Source of the DNA: Terriglobales bacterium
Lineage (GTDB): Bacteria > Acidobacteriota > Terriglobia > Terriglobales > Acidobacteriaceae
DNA: 64,000 nt
Direction of reading: 5' to 3'
Assembly (NCBI GenBank): GCA_035764005.1
Contig: DASTZZ010000065.1
Coordinates: forward strand, 1-64,000
Under the pieces are notes generated by a model that was not told the origin of the DNA, did no database searches, and worked only from the letters and a program-made list of their open reading frames with translations. Position 1 is the stretch's first letter, and each line of letters begins with the position of its first letter. Shown in pieces: positions 4,236-46,134 of the stretch. The translations under genes and the position numbers were made by a program.

Positions 4236-4496
4236 GTGTTTTCTCGCAGAATCGCAGTTGCTTACGAAACAGATGGTCAGCGTCAGCCTTGCGCGCTGAA
4301 GTGGCTCGACAGCTTCTCCATGCGCAACTTCACCAATGACGCGGTCTTCGACGACACCCTTCCGCTCAGCGATGGCTTGATCGAGATCGGCGCTCGCGTC
4401 CCTCTCGAAGATCTGCGAACGGCGATGCAGGACTGGTTTCAACGAAAGGGCTACCTGCCCAAAGGCTCGCAATTGCTCTTAAAGGAGCTTGCCTGA
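4236..4496 (+). CDS. Small hypothetical protein
   Basis: A GTG-started frame of 86 residues lies 33 bases after thrS on the same strand. The protein opens with a beta-rich segment, has acidic LPLSDGLIEIGARVPLEDL in the middle, and ends with a basic amphipathic helix (MQDWFQRKGYLPKGSQLLLK). There is no signal peptide, membrane segment or recognised domain. Composition and codon use resemble the neighbours, and GAAG lies just upstream of the start. It may share the thrS transcript. Function unknown. Confidence 0.5.
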   Translation: MFSRRIAVAYETDGQRQPCALKWLDSFSMRNFTNDAVFDDTLPLSDGLIEIGARVPLEDLRTAMQDWFQRKGYLPKGSQLLLKELA

Positions 4497-26639: not shown

Positions 26640-26760
26640 AATGCCAGAGTGCCGCCCCTACGGGCTCGGTTTGTGTGGATCCCAACCCAGCACTTACGTG
26701 CTGGGCTATCCATATGTCGGGCCTACGGCGCTTTGGGCGTCGCTTCGCTCGCACGGAATC
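26640..26760. repeat. Hairpin-string repeat region
   Basis: CCCAGCAC (26686-26693), loop TTAC and GTGCTGGG (26698-26705) form a perfect 8-bp hairpin. It is flanked by GCCCCTACGGGC-like and GGGCCTACGGCGC-like short dyads. The style matches the hairpin strings at 38155, 40414, 46217 and 49991. The rest of the 426-base gap 26599-27024 holds no gene I can support. Confidence 0.55.
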
Positions 26761-40652: not shown

Positions 40653-41747
40653 TTACGTCTTTGCGGCTCGCGCCTCATGCAGCTCCTCCAGTACCGAAAT
40701 GGGAGGAGGCGCCGTTGACTCGCGCACGATCAGCTCCGGTTCTACGGCGAGGATCTTCGGGAACTCGGCGCCGCGAATCCGTTTCAGCAGCATCTCAGCA
40801 GCGAGTTCGCCCATGCGCCGCAGCGGCTGCCGAATCGTGGTGAGGCGCGGGTTTTGGAAGGCGGCGCTCTGGATGTCGTCGAAGCCGATCACTGAGACCT
40901 CGCCCGGCACCTTGACTCCCGAATCGAGCAGAGCGCGCACCGCGCCGATCGCCGAGATGTCGTTGAACGCGAACATCGCGGTGAAATGACGATGCTTCGC
41001 CAGTAGCGACTTGGTCACGTCGTAGCCCGGCTCGGGCGTCGGCGTGTCGGCCTGGAGCTGCGTTACCAAATCGGGATCGACTGTCAGCCCCAGCTTGCGC
41101 GCCGCCTCGCGAATCGAGGCCCAGCGCGTTTCCGTATCGGAACTGAATGGCTGGCCCTTGATGAACGCAATGTGACGATGCCCAAGCTGGAGCAGGTGTT
41201 CGAGAGCCAGAATCGCCGCCTGGCGATGATCGAGCACGACGTTCGTGATCCCTGGCAAACGGCGGTGTCCGGACACCACCGTCATCGGCACATTCGGCAC
41301 GAACGGAAGCTCCGCCGTATCGAGCGCGATGATGCCCTCGACCAGCCGCTCCATAAACAGCCGCGGATACTGCTCGAGCAGATGCGTCTTATGCCGGTGG
41401 CTGACGACGAAGTAGAAGTACCCAGCCTGCAGCAGATAATCTTCGATGCCCGCCAGCACCAGCGCCGCATAGCCTTCACTCACTTCGGGGACAAGCACTC
41501 CAATGGTGAACGTCTGCTGCTTCCGCAGCGAGCGCGCGACGAAGTTGGGCCGGTAATTGAACTTCGCCGCCGCCGCGAGAATGCGCTTCCTGGTCTTCTC
41601 AGGAAAGCGTTTGGCCTTCGGCGTCGAGTTCAACACCATCGAAACCGCCGCCGGCGAGAGCTTGAGATACTTCGCGAGGCTGCGAATCGTGACCGGCTGA
41701 TTCGAGCTTTCCAGAGTGCGCTTGCGCGAATGCTTTTCGTGACTCAT
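40653..41747 (-). CDS. LacI-family transcriptional regulator
   Basis: This 364-residue regulator has the N-terminal HTH VTIRSLAKYLKLSPAAVSMV, then LNSTPKAKRFPEKTRKRI and the hinge YRPNFVARSLRKQQ. A periplasmic-binding-like sensor follows (IGVLVPEVSEGYAALVLAGI, MFAFNDISAIGAVRALLDSG, SVIGFDDIQSAAFQNPRLTT). Such proteins repress sugar-utilisation genes until a sugar binds. The ATG at 41747 is preferred to a TTG 30 bases further out. It is divergent from the TonB-dependent receptor at 42709, across the palindrome arrays at 41840-42402. Likely targets are the nearby receptor and glycosidase genes, by inference. Confidence 0.92.
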   Translation of the reverse strand: MSHEKHSRKRTLESSNQPVTIRSLAKYLKLSPAAVSMVLNSTPKAKRFPEKTRKRILAAAAKFNYRPNFVARSLRKQQTFTIGVLVPEVSEGYAALVLAGIEDYLLQAGYFYFVVSHRHKTHLLEQYPRLFMERLVEGIIALDTAELPFVPNVPMTVVSGHRRLPGITNVVLDHRQAAILALEHLLQLGHRHIAFIKGQPFSSDTETRWASIREAARKLGLTVDPDLVTQLQADTPTPEPGYDVTKSLLAKHRHFTAMFAFNDISAIGAVRALLDSGVKVPGEVSVIGFDDIQSAAFQNPRLTTIRQPLRRMGELAAEMLLKRIRGAEFPKILAVEPELIVRESTAPPPISVLEELHEARAAKT

Positions 41748-41839
41748 TTTGGATGATCGATCTGCAACTTCAAGCAACTCCTGCTTTCATCGCATTGACT
41801 GCGCAAGCTTTACAGCCCAAATCTGCGATTCTGAGCCTT

Positions 41840-41943
41840 GGGGTTAACGCCGTTTTTTCCACGGCGTTAACCCCAGATTTCCACGGCGTTAACGCCGAAT
41901 TTTCCACGGCGTTAACCCCGTCTGACTCCGGCGTTAACGCCGA
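41840..41943. promoter_or_regulatory. Five regularly spaced GTTAAC palindromes
   Basis: GTTAAC cores sit at 41843, 41866, 41888, 41911 and 41933, so centres are 23, 22, 23 and 22 bases apart, about two helical turns. Each has GC-rich symmetric flanks: CGGCGTTAACGCCG in copies 3 and 5, GGCGTTAACCCC-type in copies 1, 2 and 4. Spacers 1-3 share TTTCCAC. It lies 93 bases upstream of the LacI-family gene. It looks like an array of sites on one DNA face. Confidence 0.6.
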
Positions 41944-42100
41944 CAGAATCGACCCCGCGACGCCGTCATTGGATCTCATATTTATCAAGACAAGGCATGA
42001 CCTGGTCGGATTGGCTCGAGATGCGGCACGCCAGTTGAGCAATCATGACGAGTCCGGCCCCCATCGCCGCCGTGCGCGGACTAAACGTAGCGAGCTTGCC

Positions 42101-42217
42101 TAATCCCATCAAATCTCATCCGATCTCATCAGATATCTCATGGAGAGTGATGAGATATCTCGTGTCCCGATCTCATCTGATCTCACGCGATCTCGCCTGA
42201 TCTCATCAACTCTGACG
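42101..42217. promoter_or_regulatory. Phased GATCTCATC decamers around an 11-bp dyad
   Basis: Ten-base units of the form GATCTCATCN start at about 42101, 42111 and 42121, and again at 42168, 42178, 42188 and 42198. Between them AGATATCTCAT (42131-42141) and ATGAGATATCT (42150-42160) form a perfect 11-bp inverted repeat with an 8-base spacer. The decamer spacing equals one helical turn. No coding function is apparent. Confidence 0.55.
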
Positions 42218-42260
42218 AAAAATCCATCTTCCTGATCCCACCTTGCTGGCCATCAGCGCT

Positions 42261-42275
42261 GGGCATTTTATGCCC
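42261..42275. other. Short hairpin
   Basis: GGGCAT, loop TTT and ATGCCC form a perfect 6-bp hairpin in the long intergenic region. It could be a minor structure in the receptor leader; nothing more can be said. Confidence 0.35.
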
Positions 42276-42385
42276 GCAAAGCGGCCTCATGGCCCGCGAA
42301 TACGGCGCGCTGACGCATTCCAAGCCCCTACTTCTGTGCTATGACGAAACCGGGCGAAAGTCAAGCGAAATTTGGCGCCCGCTTT

Positions 42386-42402: not shown

Positions 42403-42708
42403 GCGTCGGTTCTCAGGCAGTCGAGGTGTTCCCGGCGCAATTGCGTCGTTGAACAAACCCGAATGATCTGTTTGCGAACGACTCTGATTTTGAGAAGCCG
42501 GGGACGGGTTCTGTTGAGAGCATCGCTGCAGAATGCCGCTAACCGCCGGCTCTCCATTCGTCCCGCCCTGTCTTGACTTCGTTTGTCGCTCGGTGCTACG
42601 AATTACAGGTTTGCTGGTTAATCGTTTCACCAACACTGCTTGCGCAGTTCATCCATTCGAAATTTGCACTCGCGTGCAAGTTCAACCACGCGCCTTCGGA
42701 GGTAGAGA

Positions 42709-45700
42709 ATGTCTCGTTTGCGTGCGCTGTCTCTCTCGGTGTTCTCGTTTTTCTTCTGCGGATGTTTTTTCTTCACTCCCGTCGCGCAGGGACAATACCG
42801 CGCGTCGCTGCATGGAACTGTGACTGATCCTTCGGGTGCGGTGGTCAGCGGGGCAACGGCCACTCTGCTGAATCCGGCAACCAATCAAAAGATGGTATCG
42901 ACCAGCGACCCTTCGGGGATTTATCACTTCAATGCGCTGCCGCCGGGAAGTTATCAGCTCACCGTAGATGCTGGGGGCTTCAAGAAGAAGGTCCTCGACA
43001 ACATCCGCATCATTCCGGAGCAGGCGAATGCGTTAGATGTGCAGCTCGAAGTGGGCAAAGTCGAAGAAACCGTGACAGTCACGGATGCCACGCCGCCGAT
43101 CGACACTGCTACAGGCAACATCACCGGCACGATCAGCACCAACCAGGTGCAGAATATGCCTTCTTTCGGGCGCGATGTGTTCAAGCTTCTTCAGTTGACT
43201 CCGGGAATGTTCGGTGACAACTCCCAGGCGGGAGGCGGAGGCGGCTTTAGTCTTCCAGGGACTCAAGGCCCTGGCGCAACCGGAGGCAGTACCGGGATCT
43301 TCCAGACAGAAAATGGTCCGCAAGCTCTCGCCGCCGGTCAGCAATATGAGAACAACAGTTACTCGATCGATGGAGTCGATACCACCAGTGCCGTATGGGG
43401 CGGCACGACGGTCATCACACCGAACGAGGAATCGGTCCAGGACGTTAAGGTTCTTTCCAACGCTTACGACGCCGAATACGGCCGATACAGCGGAGCGCAA
43501 GTACAGGTCACATCAAAGAGCGGTACGGATAAGTACCACGGAACACTCTTCGTCACTGCACACCGGCCTGGACTAAACGCATATCAGCGATTCAATGGGC
43601 AGAACAACAAGGTTCTGCGCGATAACAACTTCTATACGCAACTCGGCGGAAGTGTCGGCGGCCCGATTTGGAAGAATAAGGTGTTTGCGTTCTTCTCCTA
43701 CGAGACCACGCGTAGCCCCAAGGCACAAACCAGCACGGCCAATGGATGGTATGAGACTCCCGCGTTCGAAAAGCTCGCGCCAAATGGGAGCATTGCCTCG
43801 ACCTATCTAGGCTTTCCTGGGGGATCGGTTCAGAGCATCGGGCTCAATAATTCAACTTGCGCGAACGCCGGTTTGACTGAGGGCGTGAATTGCCGAACCA
43901 TTCCGGGACAAGGGCTGGATATTGGTTCGCCTCTGACTTCAGCCCTGGGAACGCAGGACCCGGGATGGCAGAGCGCGTCGAACCCAGGACTAGGCAGCGG
44001 ATTGGATGGCGTGGCGGACATCGCCAACTACGTGACGCAGAGCACTTCCCATTTTGGGGCCGCGCAGTACAACGGTCGCGTCGACGCCAATATCACCAGC
44101 AAAGATCGGCTGGCATTCAGCATGTACTGGGTGCCTCTATCGAACACGTTTCTCAACGGACCAGCGCGTGCTTATGACCTCTTCAACCATTCGCAAATCA
44201 ACAACGCATTTGCTGGAATTTGGGATCGCACCTTCTCCCCAACTCTGGTGAACGAATTTCGTGTGAATGCGTCGGGATGGCGCTGGAACGAGGTAGCGTC
44301 GAATCCGCAATCGCCGGTTGGTTTACCGACGGACAGAATTGATCAAATCGGGAGCATCACGCTTCAGCAGTTCGGTCCCAACGTCGGCAGCATACTGAAT
44401 CAATGGACCTATGCGATTAAGGACGTAGCAACCAAGTCTGCCGGGCGCCACACGCTGAAATTCGGCGGAGAAGTTACGCGTCTCTACTACTTGAATGAGA
44501 ATGCGGGCGGCACCGTTCCGAGTTACAACTTCTTTAATCTTTGGGACTTCCTGAATGACGCCCCGCACAGCGAAAGCGGCAGATTCGATCCCAGCACCGG
44601 TGTGCCAACGCTCGCGCGGCAGGACGATCGCGAAAGCCTGGTCGGTGTGTTCGGACAAGACGACTTCAAAGTCACCAGGAATCTCACCCTCAACCTCGGA
44701 CTGCGCTGGAACTATTTCGGGCCGCTCACTTCGAAGCAGGGCAATATGTTCGTTGCTATTCCAGGAAGCGGTTCGAATTTTCTGACTGGTCTGACTGTGA
44801 AACGTGGAGATTCGTGGAATGCGCAGAAAAACAATTTCGGCCCAGAGATCGGATTCGCGTGGAGTCCGGGAAGGTCAGAGGGCAAGCTGGCAATTCGGGG
44901 CGGCTATGGCCTGAATTACAACCAGCTGGAACTGGCGCTCTCGGCTAACGTCGCCAACAATCCTGGGCTGGTGGTGAATCCGTCATTCACAATGGCCACG
45001 CCGAGTTCGCCGAATCCCGGCATTGTGTATGCAGTGTCCTCAAATTTGCGCTCGCTCACTAATTTCCCTGCTAATCCGAACGCAGTATCTTCGTTTGCCT
45101 CGAATGGATTGCCCGCGAGTGGCGCGCCGGTGAACGTGGTCATCTTCCCACAGGACTTGCCGACGTTGCGCGTTCATCACTACTCTCTGCAAACCGAATA
45201 CAACTTTGGCGATAACTATGTGATGTCGCTGAGTTATCAGGGAAGCTTGTCGCGCAATCTGGTGTTCCACGAGAACCCGAATGCGACTCCGGCAGCCTCT
45301 GGATTCGCATTAAATCCGCAGATCGGCGGCGGCGACTTCTGGAACATGAACGGCTATGGTAACTACAACGCCATGATCGCCGAGCTTCGTCACCAGTTCT
45401 CGCGGCAGTTCATGGCCGATTTTCAGTTCACCTGGTCCAAGAGTATGGACACGGCATCAGGACCCTACTACGAGAATCCGTATCCCTATAATCCGAGCCT
45501 CGACTACGGACGCTCAGATTACAACGTCGCCCACGCATACAAGATCTATGCGCTGTGGCAGCCGAGATTCTTTCATGGAAATAATGTGCTCGATAAAATC
45601 GCCGGCGGATGGTCAATCAGCGGAATCTTCAATTACCACACCGGTTTTCCATGGTCGCCAACTGTTAGCGTGGTTGGCGGCAGCCTGTATTGCGGGACAT

Positions 45701-46134
45701 GCGGTTATGGCAGCCTGTATCCAGCTGCATACTTGGGTGGAGCTGGGACCAGCACAAGCAACGATCAATTCAAGACAGGTTCGAACTACGTGAATGGAGG
45801 AACGGCGTACTTCTCGAATCCGAGTTACACGCCATTCAACGGCAACAGCTTCGGGCCAGCCCTCCCGCAGACTGGACTGCATCGCGGCTTCCTCACAGGT
45901 CCTAACTACCGGGATTTGGATATGACGCTGACGAAAGCTTTTGGCCTGCCGGTGATGCCAGTGCTGGGAGAGAACGCCAAGATCGAATTCCGTGTGGACG
46001 CGTACAACGTGTTCAACAACTTGAACTTCAATCCACTGAACATCTCCAACAACATCGCTAACTCGAACTTCGGGCAGGACACCGGAGCACTCGCAGGACG
46101 CGTAGTCACGCTCGGAGCTCGATTCAACTTCTAA
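42709..46134 (+). CDS. Oar-like TonB-dependent receptor
   Basis: This 1,141-residue outer membrane receptor has a signal peptide (SVFSFFFCGCFFFTPVAQG). A carboxypeptidase-regulatory-like domain follows (about 28-110: YRASLHGTVTDPSGAVVSGA, NALPPGSYQLTVDAGGFKKK). Next is a plug domain with VFKLLQLTPGMFGDN and SNAYDAEYGRYSGAQVQVTS, and a beta barrel ending VVTLGARFNF with terminal Phe. GGAGG (42698-42702) sets the ATG. The neighbouring LacI-family regulator and two glycoside-hydrolase-like genes suggest it imports an oligosaccharide. The substrate is inference. Confidence 0.93.
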   Translation: MSRLRALSLSVFSFFFCGCFFFTPVAQGQYRASLHGTVTDPSGAVVSGATATLLNPATNQKMVSTSDPSGIYHFNALPPGSYQLTVDAGGFKKKVLDNIRIIPEQANALDVQLEVGKVEETVTVTDATPPIDTATGNITGTISTNQVQNMPSFGRDVFKLLQLTPGMFGDNSQAGGGGGFSLPGTQGPGATGGSTGIFQTENGPQALAAGQQYENNSYSIDGVDTTSAVWGGTTVITPNEESVQDVKVLSNAYDAEYGRYSGAQVQVTSKSGTDKYHGTLFVTAHRPGLNAYQRFNGQNNKVLRDNNFYTQLGGSVGGPIWKNKVFAFFSYETTRSPKAQTSTANGWYETPAFEKLAPNGSIASTYLGFPGGSVQSIGLNNSTCANAGLTEGVNCRTIPGQGLDIGSPLTSALGTQDPGWQSASNPGLGSGLDGVADIANYVTQSTSHFGAAQYNGRVDANITSKDRLAFSMYWVPLSNTFLNGPARAYDLFNHSQINNAFAGIWDRTFSPTLVNEFRVNASGWRWNEVASNPQSPVGLPTDRIDQIGSITLQQFGPNVGSILNQWTYAIKDVATKSAGRHTLKFGGEVTRLYYLNENAGGTVPSYNFFNLWDFLNDAPHSESGRFDPSTGVPTLARQDDRESLVGVFGQDDFKVTRNLTLNLGLRWNYFGPLTSKQGNMFVAIPGSGSNFLTGLTVKRGDSWNAQKNNFGPEIGFAWSPGRSEGKLAIRGGYGLNYNQLELALSANVANNPGLVVNPSFTMATPSSPNPGIVYAVSSNLRSLTNFPANPNAVSSFASNGLPASGAPVNVVIFPQDLPTLRVHHYSLQTEYNFGDNYVMSLSYQGSLSRNLVFHENPNATPAASGFALNPQIGGGDFWNMNGYGNYNAMIAELRHQFSRQFMADFQFTWSKSMDTASGPYYENPYPYNPSLDYGRSDYNVAHAYKIYALWQPRFFHGNNVLDKIAGGWSISGIFNYHTGFPWSPTVSVVGGSLYCGTCGYGSLYPAAYLGGAGTSTSNDQFKTGSNYVNGGTAYFSNPSYTPFNGNSFGPALPQTGLHRGFLTGPNYRDLDMTLTKAFGLPVMPVLGENAKIEFRVDAYNVFNNLNFNPLNISNNIANSNFGQDTGALAGRVVTLGARFNF

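Follow-up and report, generated by a model that had tools for sequence, protein, structure and literature searches.

A dispersed promoter-array cassette of phased palindromes and its linked zinc-finger gene family in a genus of Acidobacteriota

Relation to described repeat systems

Palindromes that are tied to a protein gene and also occur in many copies without that gene have been described for the REP/RAYT systems, according to PMC3733652 and PMC3116915. The first of these sources records for K. versatilis a single TIR family with three TIRYT genes, and gives a GTAG tag at the palindrome end as the mark of one of two REP superfamilies, the other being marked by CGTC. As far as they are set out there, REP/REPIN-RAYT (REPtrons) and TIR-TIRYT resemble the arrays reported here, which are likewise dispersed extragenic palindromes with subfamilies tied to a linked gene and with many gene-less copies. 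The arrays differ from REP/RAYT in being phased, with 3-6 sites and a promoter, and in that the linked protein is of the CCCH zinc-finger type and not an HUH transposase. K. versatilis is itself an acidobacterium. By composition, neither the array sites nor the spacers contain a conserved GTAG. An origin from RAYT and REP elements was rejected: of the 12 Y1_Tnp matches in the genome, only one (L057) has a phased array nearby, the examined sequence reaching about 1.5 kb or more to either side where available. Several other Y1 loci show between one and four matches to GTWAC-like or GAGATC words, none of them in phase. REP with RAYT is the nearest known logic, but the transposase link that defines it does not hold here.

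Phased multi-site operators and iterons consist of similar sites at about two helical turns. The arrays share this arrangement, which would suit proteins binding cooperatively along one helical face, but differ in two respects: in many leaders they follow one fixed type of promoter, and their core length shifts by one base across whole arrays. CRISPR arrays also have partly palindromic units at regular spacing, whereas the gaps here measure 9-13 bp, most of them holding a conserved word, and the units are few. LacI-family operators are expected to have a CG centre; the likeness is that of palindromic DNA near a LacI-family gene, and the differences are a TA centre, five copies and a lack of conservation with the gene. 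The arrays were found named nowhere in a literature search that mostly stopped short of full texts, and a REP survey (PMC12306157) may cover such repeats. The presence of the cassette ahead of many genes, including those for ribosomal RNA, in one genus of soil bacteria, together with its link to a little-known family of small zinc-finger genes, suggests an undescribed system of gene control or mobility.

The array in the window and the neighbouring LacI gene

The window is a stretch of 64,000 nucleotides, and the features of interest are collected in Table 1. A first-pass annotation had described five GTTAAC-centred dyads spaced 23, 22, 23 and 22 bases apart between genes for a LacI-family regulator and a TonB-dependent receptor. 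On re-check the same sites and start-to-start distances were found, and the location was borne out by a gene-free gap from the LacI-family ATG at 41747 (minus strand) to the receptor ATG at 42709 (plus strand). All 10 GGSGTTAACSCC-like matches in the window (at most one mismatch, both strands) fall inside the array; shuffled windows contained a mean of 0.44 and a maximum of 5 such matches, and none of 100 reached 10. The description of TTTCCAC as a second conserved word stands for the first three of the four gaps and fails for the last, which reads GTCTGACTCC.

Table 1. Features of the window cassette and its flanks
Feature	Coordinates	Strand	Remarks
LacI-family regulator	40653..41747	minus	downstream of cassette
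Putative leader	41747..42335	minus	cassette promoter to LacI-family start codon; predicted from sequence
Array of five GGSGTTAACSCC dyads	41840..41941	minus	12-bp core; strand is the presumed transcribed sense
Sites of this array	41840-41851, 41863-41874, 41885-41896, 41908-41919, 41930-41941		
Second array, 10-bp repeats GATCTCATC	42099..42217	minus	central GATATC inverted repeat
Cassette promoter TTGACT-N17-TAGCAC	42336..42364	minus	reads leftwards through both arrays toward LacI-family gene
Likely LacI-family operator GGTTAATCGTTTCACC	42616..42631	plus	CG-centred dyad; putative role
TonB-dependent receptor-type outer membrane protein	42709..46134	plus	carboxypeptidase-regulatory-like domain + OMP_b-brl_4

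The neighbouring GATCTCATC array and the minus-strand promoter, absent from the first description, belong with the GTTAAC array. The former is of the type found past the stop codon of the G000 C78 zinc-finger gene, and the GTTAAC array resembles the one after the zinc-finger gene at C69 (L054/L194). A motif scan of the window revealed no member of this zinc-finger family. We read the window cassette as an ORF-less composite of promoter, GATATC array and GTTAAC array. At a helicase locus in three sister species (L143, L144, L154), a GATCCC/GATATC-like repeat was seen by eye on the promoter side, in the same order as in the window. A coding repeat was considered and set aside: one frame is open across the window array (a 90-aa ORF), yet a period of 22/23 bp is not divisible by three, and the ORFs that run into other arrays are short and stop at differing points within them. 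The DnaA-box consensus has one free position, and when TTTCCAC was considered as a DnaA box this position was C in 53 of 60 odd-core and 37 of 37 even-core 11-bp gaps.

The position of the array, about 92 bp upstream of the LacI-family start codon, would suit an operator through which the adjacent protein regulates its own gene. We give this reading almost no credence, and reject it because the array is absent at the orthologous gene in five sister species. The LacI orthologue is present in all five (G001-G005, 82-87% protein identity), and alignment of the orthologous LacI-receptor gaps shows no array in any of them, while a CG-centred dyad is kept: GGTTAATCGTTTAACC is exact in G001-G004 and one base off in G005 and in the window. 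In all six species this dyad sits after a promoter-like TTGACT and upstream of the receptor gene; in the window it directly follows the receptor's own TTGACT at 42573. The dyad at 42616-42631 is the probable LacI-family operator. The doubt expressed in the first-pass annotation, that the array is no ordinary LacI operator, was thus well placed, and a different, cooperatively binding protein is upheld as possible. A private tie between the array and the LacI/TonB pair finds no support: the sister LacI genes lack an array, and 13 further even-core arrays lie elsewhere, mostly ahead of unrelated genes. The gap in the window is several hundred bases longer than in the sister species, and the stretch between array and promoter appears to have been gained in the window's lineage, with approximate ends. 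The gap seems to collect insertions, because three sister species (G001, G003 and G004; L165, L166 and L167) hold another inverted repeat there (GTCATCCTGAGGCC...).

Dispersed arrays, their promoter and the genes behind them

The GGSGTTAACSCC pattern occurs 38 times per strand in the 5.1-Mb genome of the window, as against 3 and 2 occurrences of the reversed pattern. Its exact copies fall in 14 phased arrays of 3 to 6 sites with a 12-bp (even) core, and the same genome holds five arrays with the 11-bp core GGSGTWACSCC as well as degenerate arrays. The repeats are thus dispersed, extragenic and multicopy palindromes, and their regular spacing near two helical turns is conserved across copies. 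The period tracks the core, being mostly 23 for the 12-bp core and 22 for the 11-bp core, and the gap is 11 bp in 97 of 128 cases; where an array has five sites, the gap most distant from the downstream gene is usually 9-10 bp long and lacks TTTCCAC. The first-pass annotation had held that scattered, unphased and unconserved copies would mark a simple dispersed repeat. The copies are indeed dispersed, but the exact ones all lie in the 14 phased arrays, and orthologous loci are kept.

The 16-base word CCACGGSGTTAACSCC was found at 37 places in the window's genome and in none of 60 relatives, and a looser three-unit pattern matched two of 120 genomes, namely this genome and one congener. When one mismatch was allowed, clustered 11-bp-core matches appeared in four congeners, from which 18 loci were taken for analysis; single unphased matches from this search were left out, and one locus, L158, has no array. 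One 30-letter two-unit pattern matched a single contig in a collection of 84,980 species genomes, from Acidobacteriota bacterium isolate CP_BM_RX_2; this is a lower bound, given the strictness of the pattern and the possible absence of the window's own genome from the collection. Regular arrays are kept at four orthologous loci, each shared by two to four species, and at a fifth locus a variant array is found in two. Several irregular copies were also encountered: L056 carries at 4304-4380 a second, degenerate 11-bp-core array about 200 bp from its even-core array, and L141 (G004) and L150 (G003) hold orthologous variant arrays that are irregularly spaced, lack the usual TTTCCAC spacers and have no promoter by pattern.

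A sigma-70-like promoter reads into the array from within 700 bp on the right (in the TTTCCAC orientation) at 32 of 37 array loci, as judged by the pattern TTGACH-N16-18-TAGCAN/TATAAT/TATAGT, which was picked after examples had been viewed. With the strict pattern, the other strand and the left side each gave none in 37, and a loose pattern gave 32 toward the array, one on the other strand and one on the left side (n=37). The five loci without a promoter by pattern are L059, L141, L143, L150 and L152. The narrower motif TTGACWN16-17TAGCAC has 22 copies in the genome, 16 of them beside counted arrays; the remaining six adjoin degenerate GTAAC arrays (two), GAGATC arrays (two), a zinc-finger ORF (one) and a contig end (one). 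The conserved block begins about 7 bp before the -35 box and ends just left of the array. Left-flank stretches are held in common by the 11-bp-core cassettes L066, L070 and L157, as if co-duplicated.

The gene beyond the array is codirectional in 29 of 34 loci (binomial p 4e-5). These assignments were made by hand; L066, L147 and L157 have no left gene and are left out, and at L059 and L062 a nearer small ORF was passed over or a choice was made among ORFs. Since the next gene is usually codirectional, the arrays lie in leaders. The genes behind them include 16S rRNA (four species), rimP followed by nusA (the latter recognised by eye), GAPDH, ruvC, tldD/pmbA, recO, a class II tRNA synthetase (read as ProRS), GH3 and a DEAD/DEAH helicase, and no common pathway is evident among them. 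The 16S genes begin 0.85-1.06 kb beyond the array and may have their own separate promoter.

In orthologous arrays, substitutions number 7/203 in the fixed core, 15/147 in TTTCCAC, 19/84 in the first four gap bases and 23/87 at the free S/W/S positions, as against 372/1049 in the left flank and 273/612 in the right flank, a divergence of 35-45%; these counts come from eight orthologue pairs at four loci, which are not independent, with gaps excluded, and the alignment of the L143/L154 pair slipped by one unit. The rRNA-locus pair L140/L148 is an exception, with 3/144 positions changed in the left flank and 6/77 in the array. The free positions remain S or W in nearly all sites (67 even, 98 odd).

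The linked zinc-finger genes and the nature of the cassette

At four loci (L054, L140, L148 and L151) an ORF between promoter and array encodes a protein of about 200-240 aa with the motif C-x9-C-x2-PA-x6-C-x2-H, of the CCCH zinc-finger type. A profile search of six genomes of the genus identified 18 genes of this family, and palindromic repeats were seen by eye after all 18, clearly in 14 and weakly in four (L201, L206, L207, L209). The clear repeats mostly overlap or touch the stop codon, that of L195 lying about 36 bp past it; the palindrome of L206 is found about 100 bp downstream of its stop. By eye, the words of these 3' arrays are GTWAC/GTTAAC in five cases, GATC-type in eight and CAAGAT-type in five (four of these weak). 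Several genes of the GATC and CAAGAT types (L199, L200, L202, L203, L204, L206) have a box TAAGTCCTTTRRA, or one close to it, downstream of their 3' arrays.

When repeats were scored over 180 bases at the stop, the median was 14 for 39 family genes and 3 for 48 control stops (p 1.5e-9), and the score reached 10 in 16 of the 18 genus genes (L196 and L207 fall below) as against 6% of the 48 control stops. Among 70 genomes from other genera, 29 also contain the family; nine of 30 loci there were dropped for want of the finger motif by script and 21 were scored. Eight of these 21 reach a score of 10, and because the group as a whole also exceeds the control stops (p 6e-5), the score fails to isolate the effect; by eye, none of the 21 is followed by a comparable phased array, the repeats there being of other kinds. 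Mapped on the protein tree, array types assigned by eye for all four groups require four changes, against a mean of 16.6 after shuffling, with none of 200 shuffles as low. The GTWAC group forms one starred clade, and the CAAGAT group is weakly supported. This link between clade and word could come from common descent of the whole unit alone. None of the curated protein families, phage families or PDB sequences searched identifies the linked protein. Weak local similarity was found to HGGxSTG (NF041373), DUF5763 (PF19067), zf-primase (PF09329) and phrog_3678, below the curated cut-offs wherever these were shown, and plasmids gave no match to one zinc-finger protein used as query. A dedicated cognate is not always present, as G001 (99% complete) has three good 11-bp-core arrays and none of its four matches is a zinc-finger ORF from that clade.

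The rRNA locus is informative about copies with and without the gene. In G002, G003 and G004 it consists of promoter, whole zinc-finger ORF and array. In the window's genome the promoter is followed by a frame of 81 aa, which begins like the C69 protein, and by an even-core array of six sites. This suggests how ORF-less copies arise. At this orthologous place the array thus has 12-bp in place of 11-bp cores throughout, by conversion, replacement or concerted change.

Several explanations can be weighed against these observations. We tentatively prefer, short of firm confidence, the view that the array is the recognition part of a dispersed promoter-array cassette of this genus, bound by protein in the leader and tuning the gene behind it. 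The phased dyads would be bound as duplex DNA, cooperatively and on one helix face, most likely by a zinc-finger protein of the linked family, the candidate for the even core being the one at G000 C69 (L194). Occupancy of the leader would then tune how far the cassette promoter transcribes the following gene, which in the window is the LacI-family gene, and ORF-less copies, the window's included, would be derivatives that keep both ends, promoter and array. Against this stand the G001 arrays that lack a zinc-finger ORF of matching clade, the absence of an evident common pathway downstream, the distance of the 16S genes and their possible own promoter, the five of 37 loci without a promoter by pattern, and the L140/L148 left flank that is better conserved than the array. 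The association of clades with words is moreover explicable by common descent alone, and zinc-finger genes of other genera also exceed control stops in repeat score. The mixed functions of the downstream genes would fit an insulator or nucleoid-structuring array, at which an architectural protein separates transcription units without regulation specific to the gene behind; the arrays between zinc-finger gene and rRNA operon in three species, with only the short frame in a fourth, are consistent with it. Such an array needs neither the orientation bias nor a fixed promoter partner, and we regard this explanation as improbable. Slightly more doubtful still is an RNA element, in which the transcribed array would form tandem hairpins in a leader or 3' UTR and act as a riboregulator, sponge or attenuator. 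The promoter pattern makes transcription of the array probable, and as a single strand the window array folds much more strongly than shuffled sequence does (z -9.3), but palindromes fold by construction. Complementarity within sites at the variable S positions is not above chance (31 observed against 32.3 expected for even cores, 47 against 53.2 for odd), and 16 tests between sites gave a lowest p of 0.07, the even set here comprising 11 arrays, with L061 and L063 out (one E/O label each judged wrong) and L067 (three sites) unused. Furthermore, the commonest even-core site, GGCGTTAACCCC, carries a mismatch, and no Rfam family reaches its gathering score over the array, the other matches being at chance level. 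Because complementarity within and between sites is no higher than chance despite the strong folding, the DNA duplex, and not an RNA hairpin, seems to be what is read.

Mobile spread in some form is likely, and would be compatible with host regulation. The narrower proposal that the cassette is a miniature mobile element, with promoter and array as its two ends for movement and ORF-less copies as non-autonomous derivatives like MITEs or REPINs, we consider rather unlikely; its mover would be the zinc-finger protein or an unlinked enzyme. In its favour, the orthologous LacI-receptor gap is occupied in the window and empty in the five sister species (with approximate boundaries), conservation stops about 7 bp past the -35 box on one side and immediately left of the array on the other, both ends are common to ORF-bearing and ORF-less copies, and one subfamily has reached 14 arrays in one genome. 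However, no transposase or recombinase domain was identified in the linked ORF, cassette ends are approximate, with no exact ends and, as far as an unsystematic comparison reached, no target duplications definable, and the orientation bias to the downstream gene (29/34) and orthologous conservation point to host use. Of much the same modest likelihood, if marginally higher, is a new genetic system in which zinc-finger genes carry cognate 3' arrays, promoter-array ends seed ORF-less copies into leaders, and protein and DNA word co-diversify into a self-spreading regulon. The recipient leaders would be those of the rRNA operon, rimP-nusA, the tRNA synthetase and metabolic genes, and co-diversification would include the concerted one-base-pair change of the dyad over whole arrays. 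If true, regulation would be spreading via copied promoter-plus-operator cassettes and would have reached core genes such as the rRNA operon in some members of this genus of Acidobacteriota. The matched clades and words, together with the one-base dyad change, would allow coevolution of protein and DNA to be tested directly on a small set of purified proteins.

Elsewhere in the window, positions 26686-26732 (plus strand) match the Acido-Lenti-1 RNA (RF01687) with 42 bits, the gathering score being 37.
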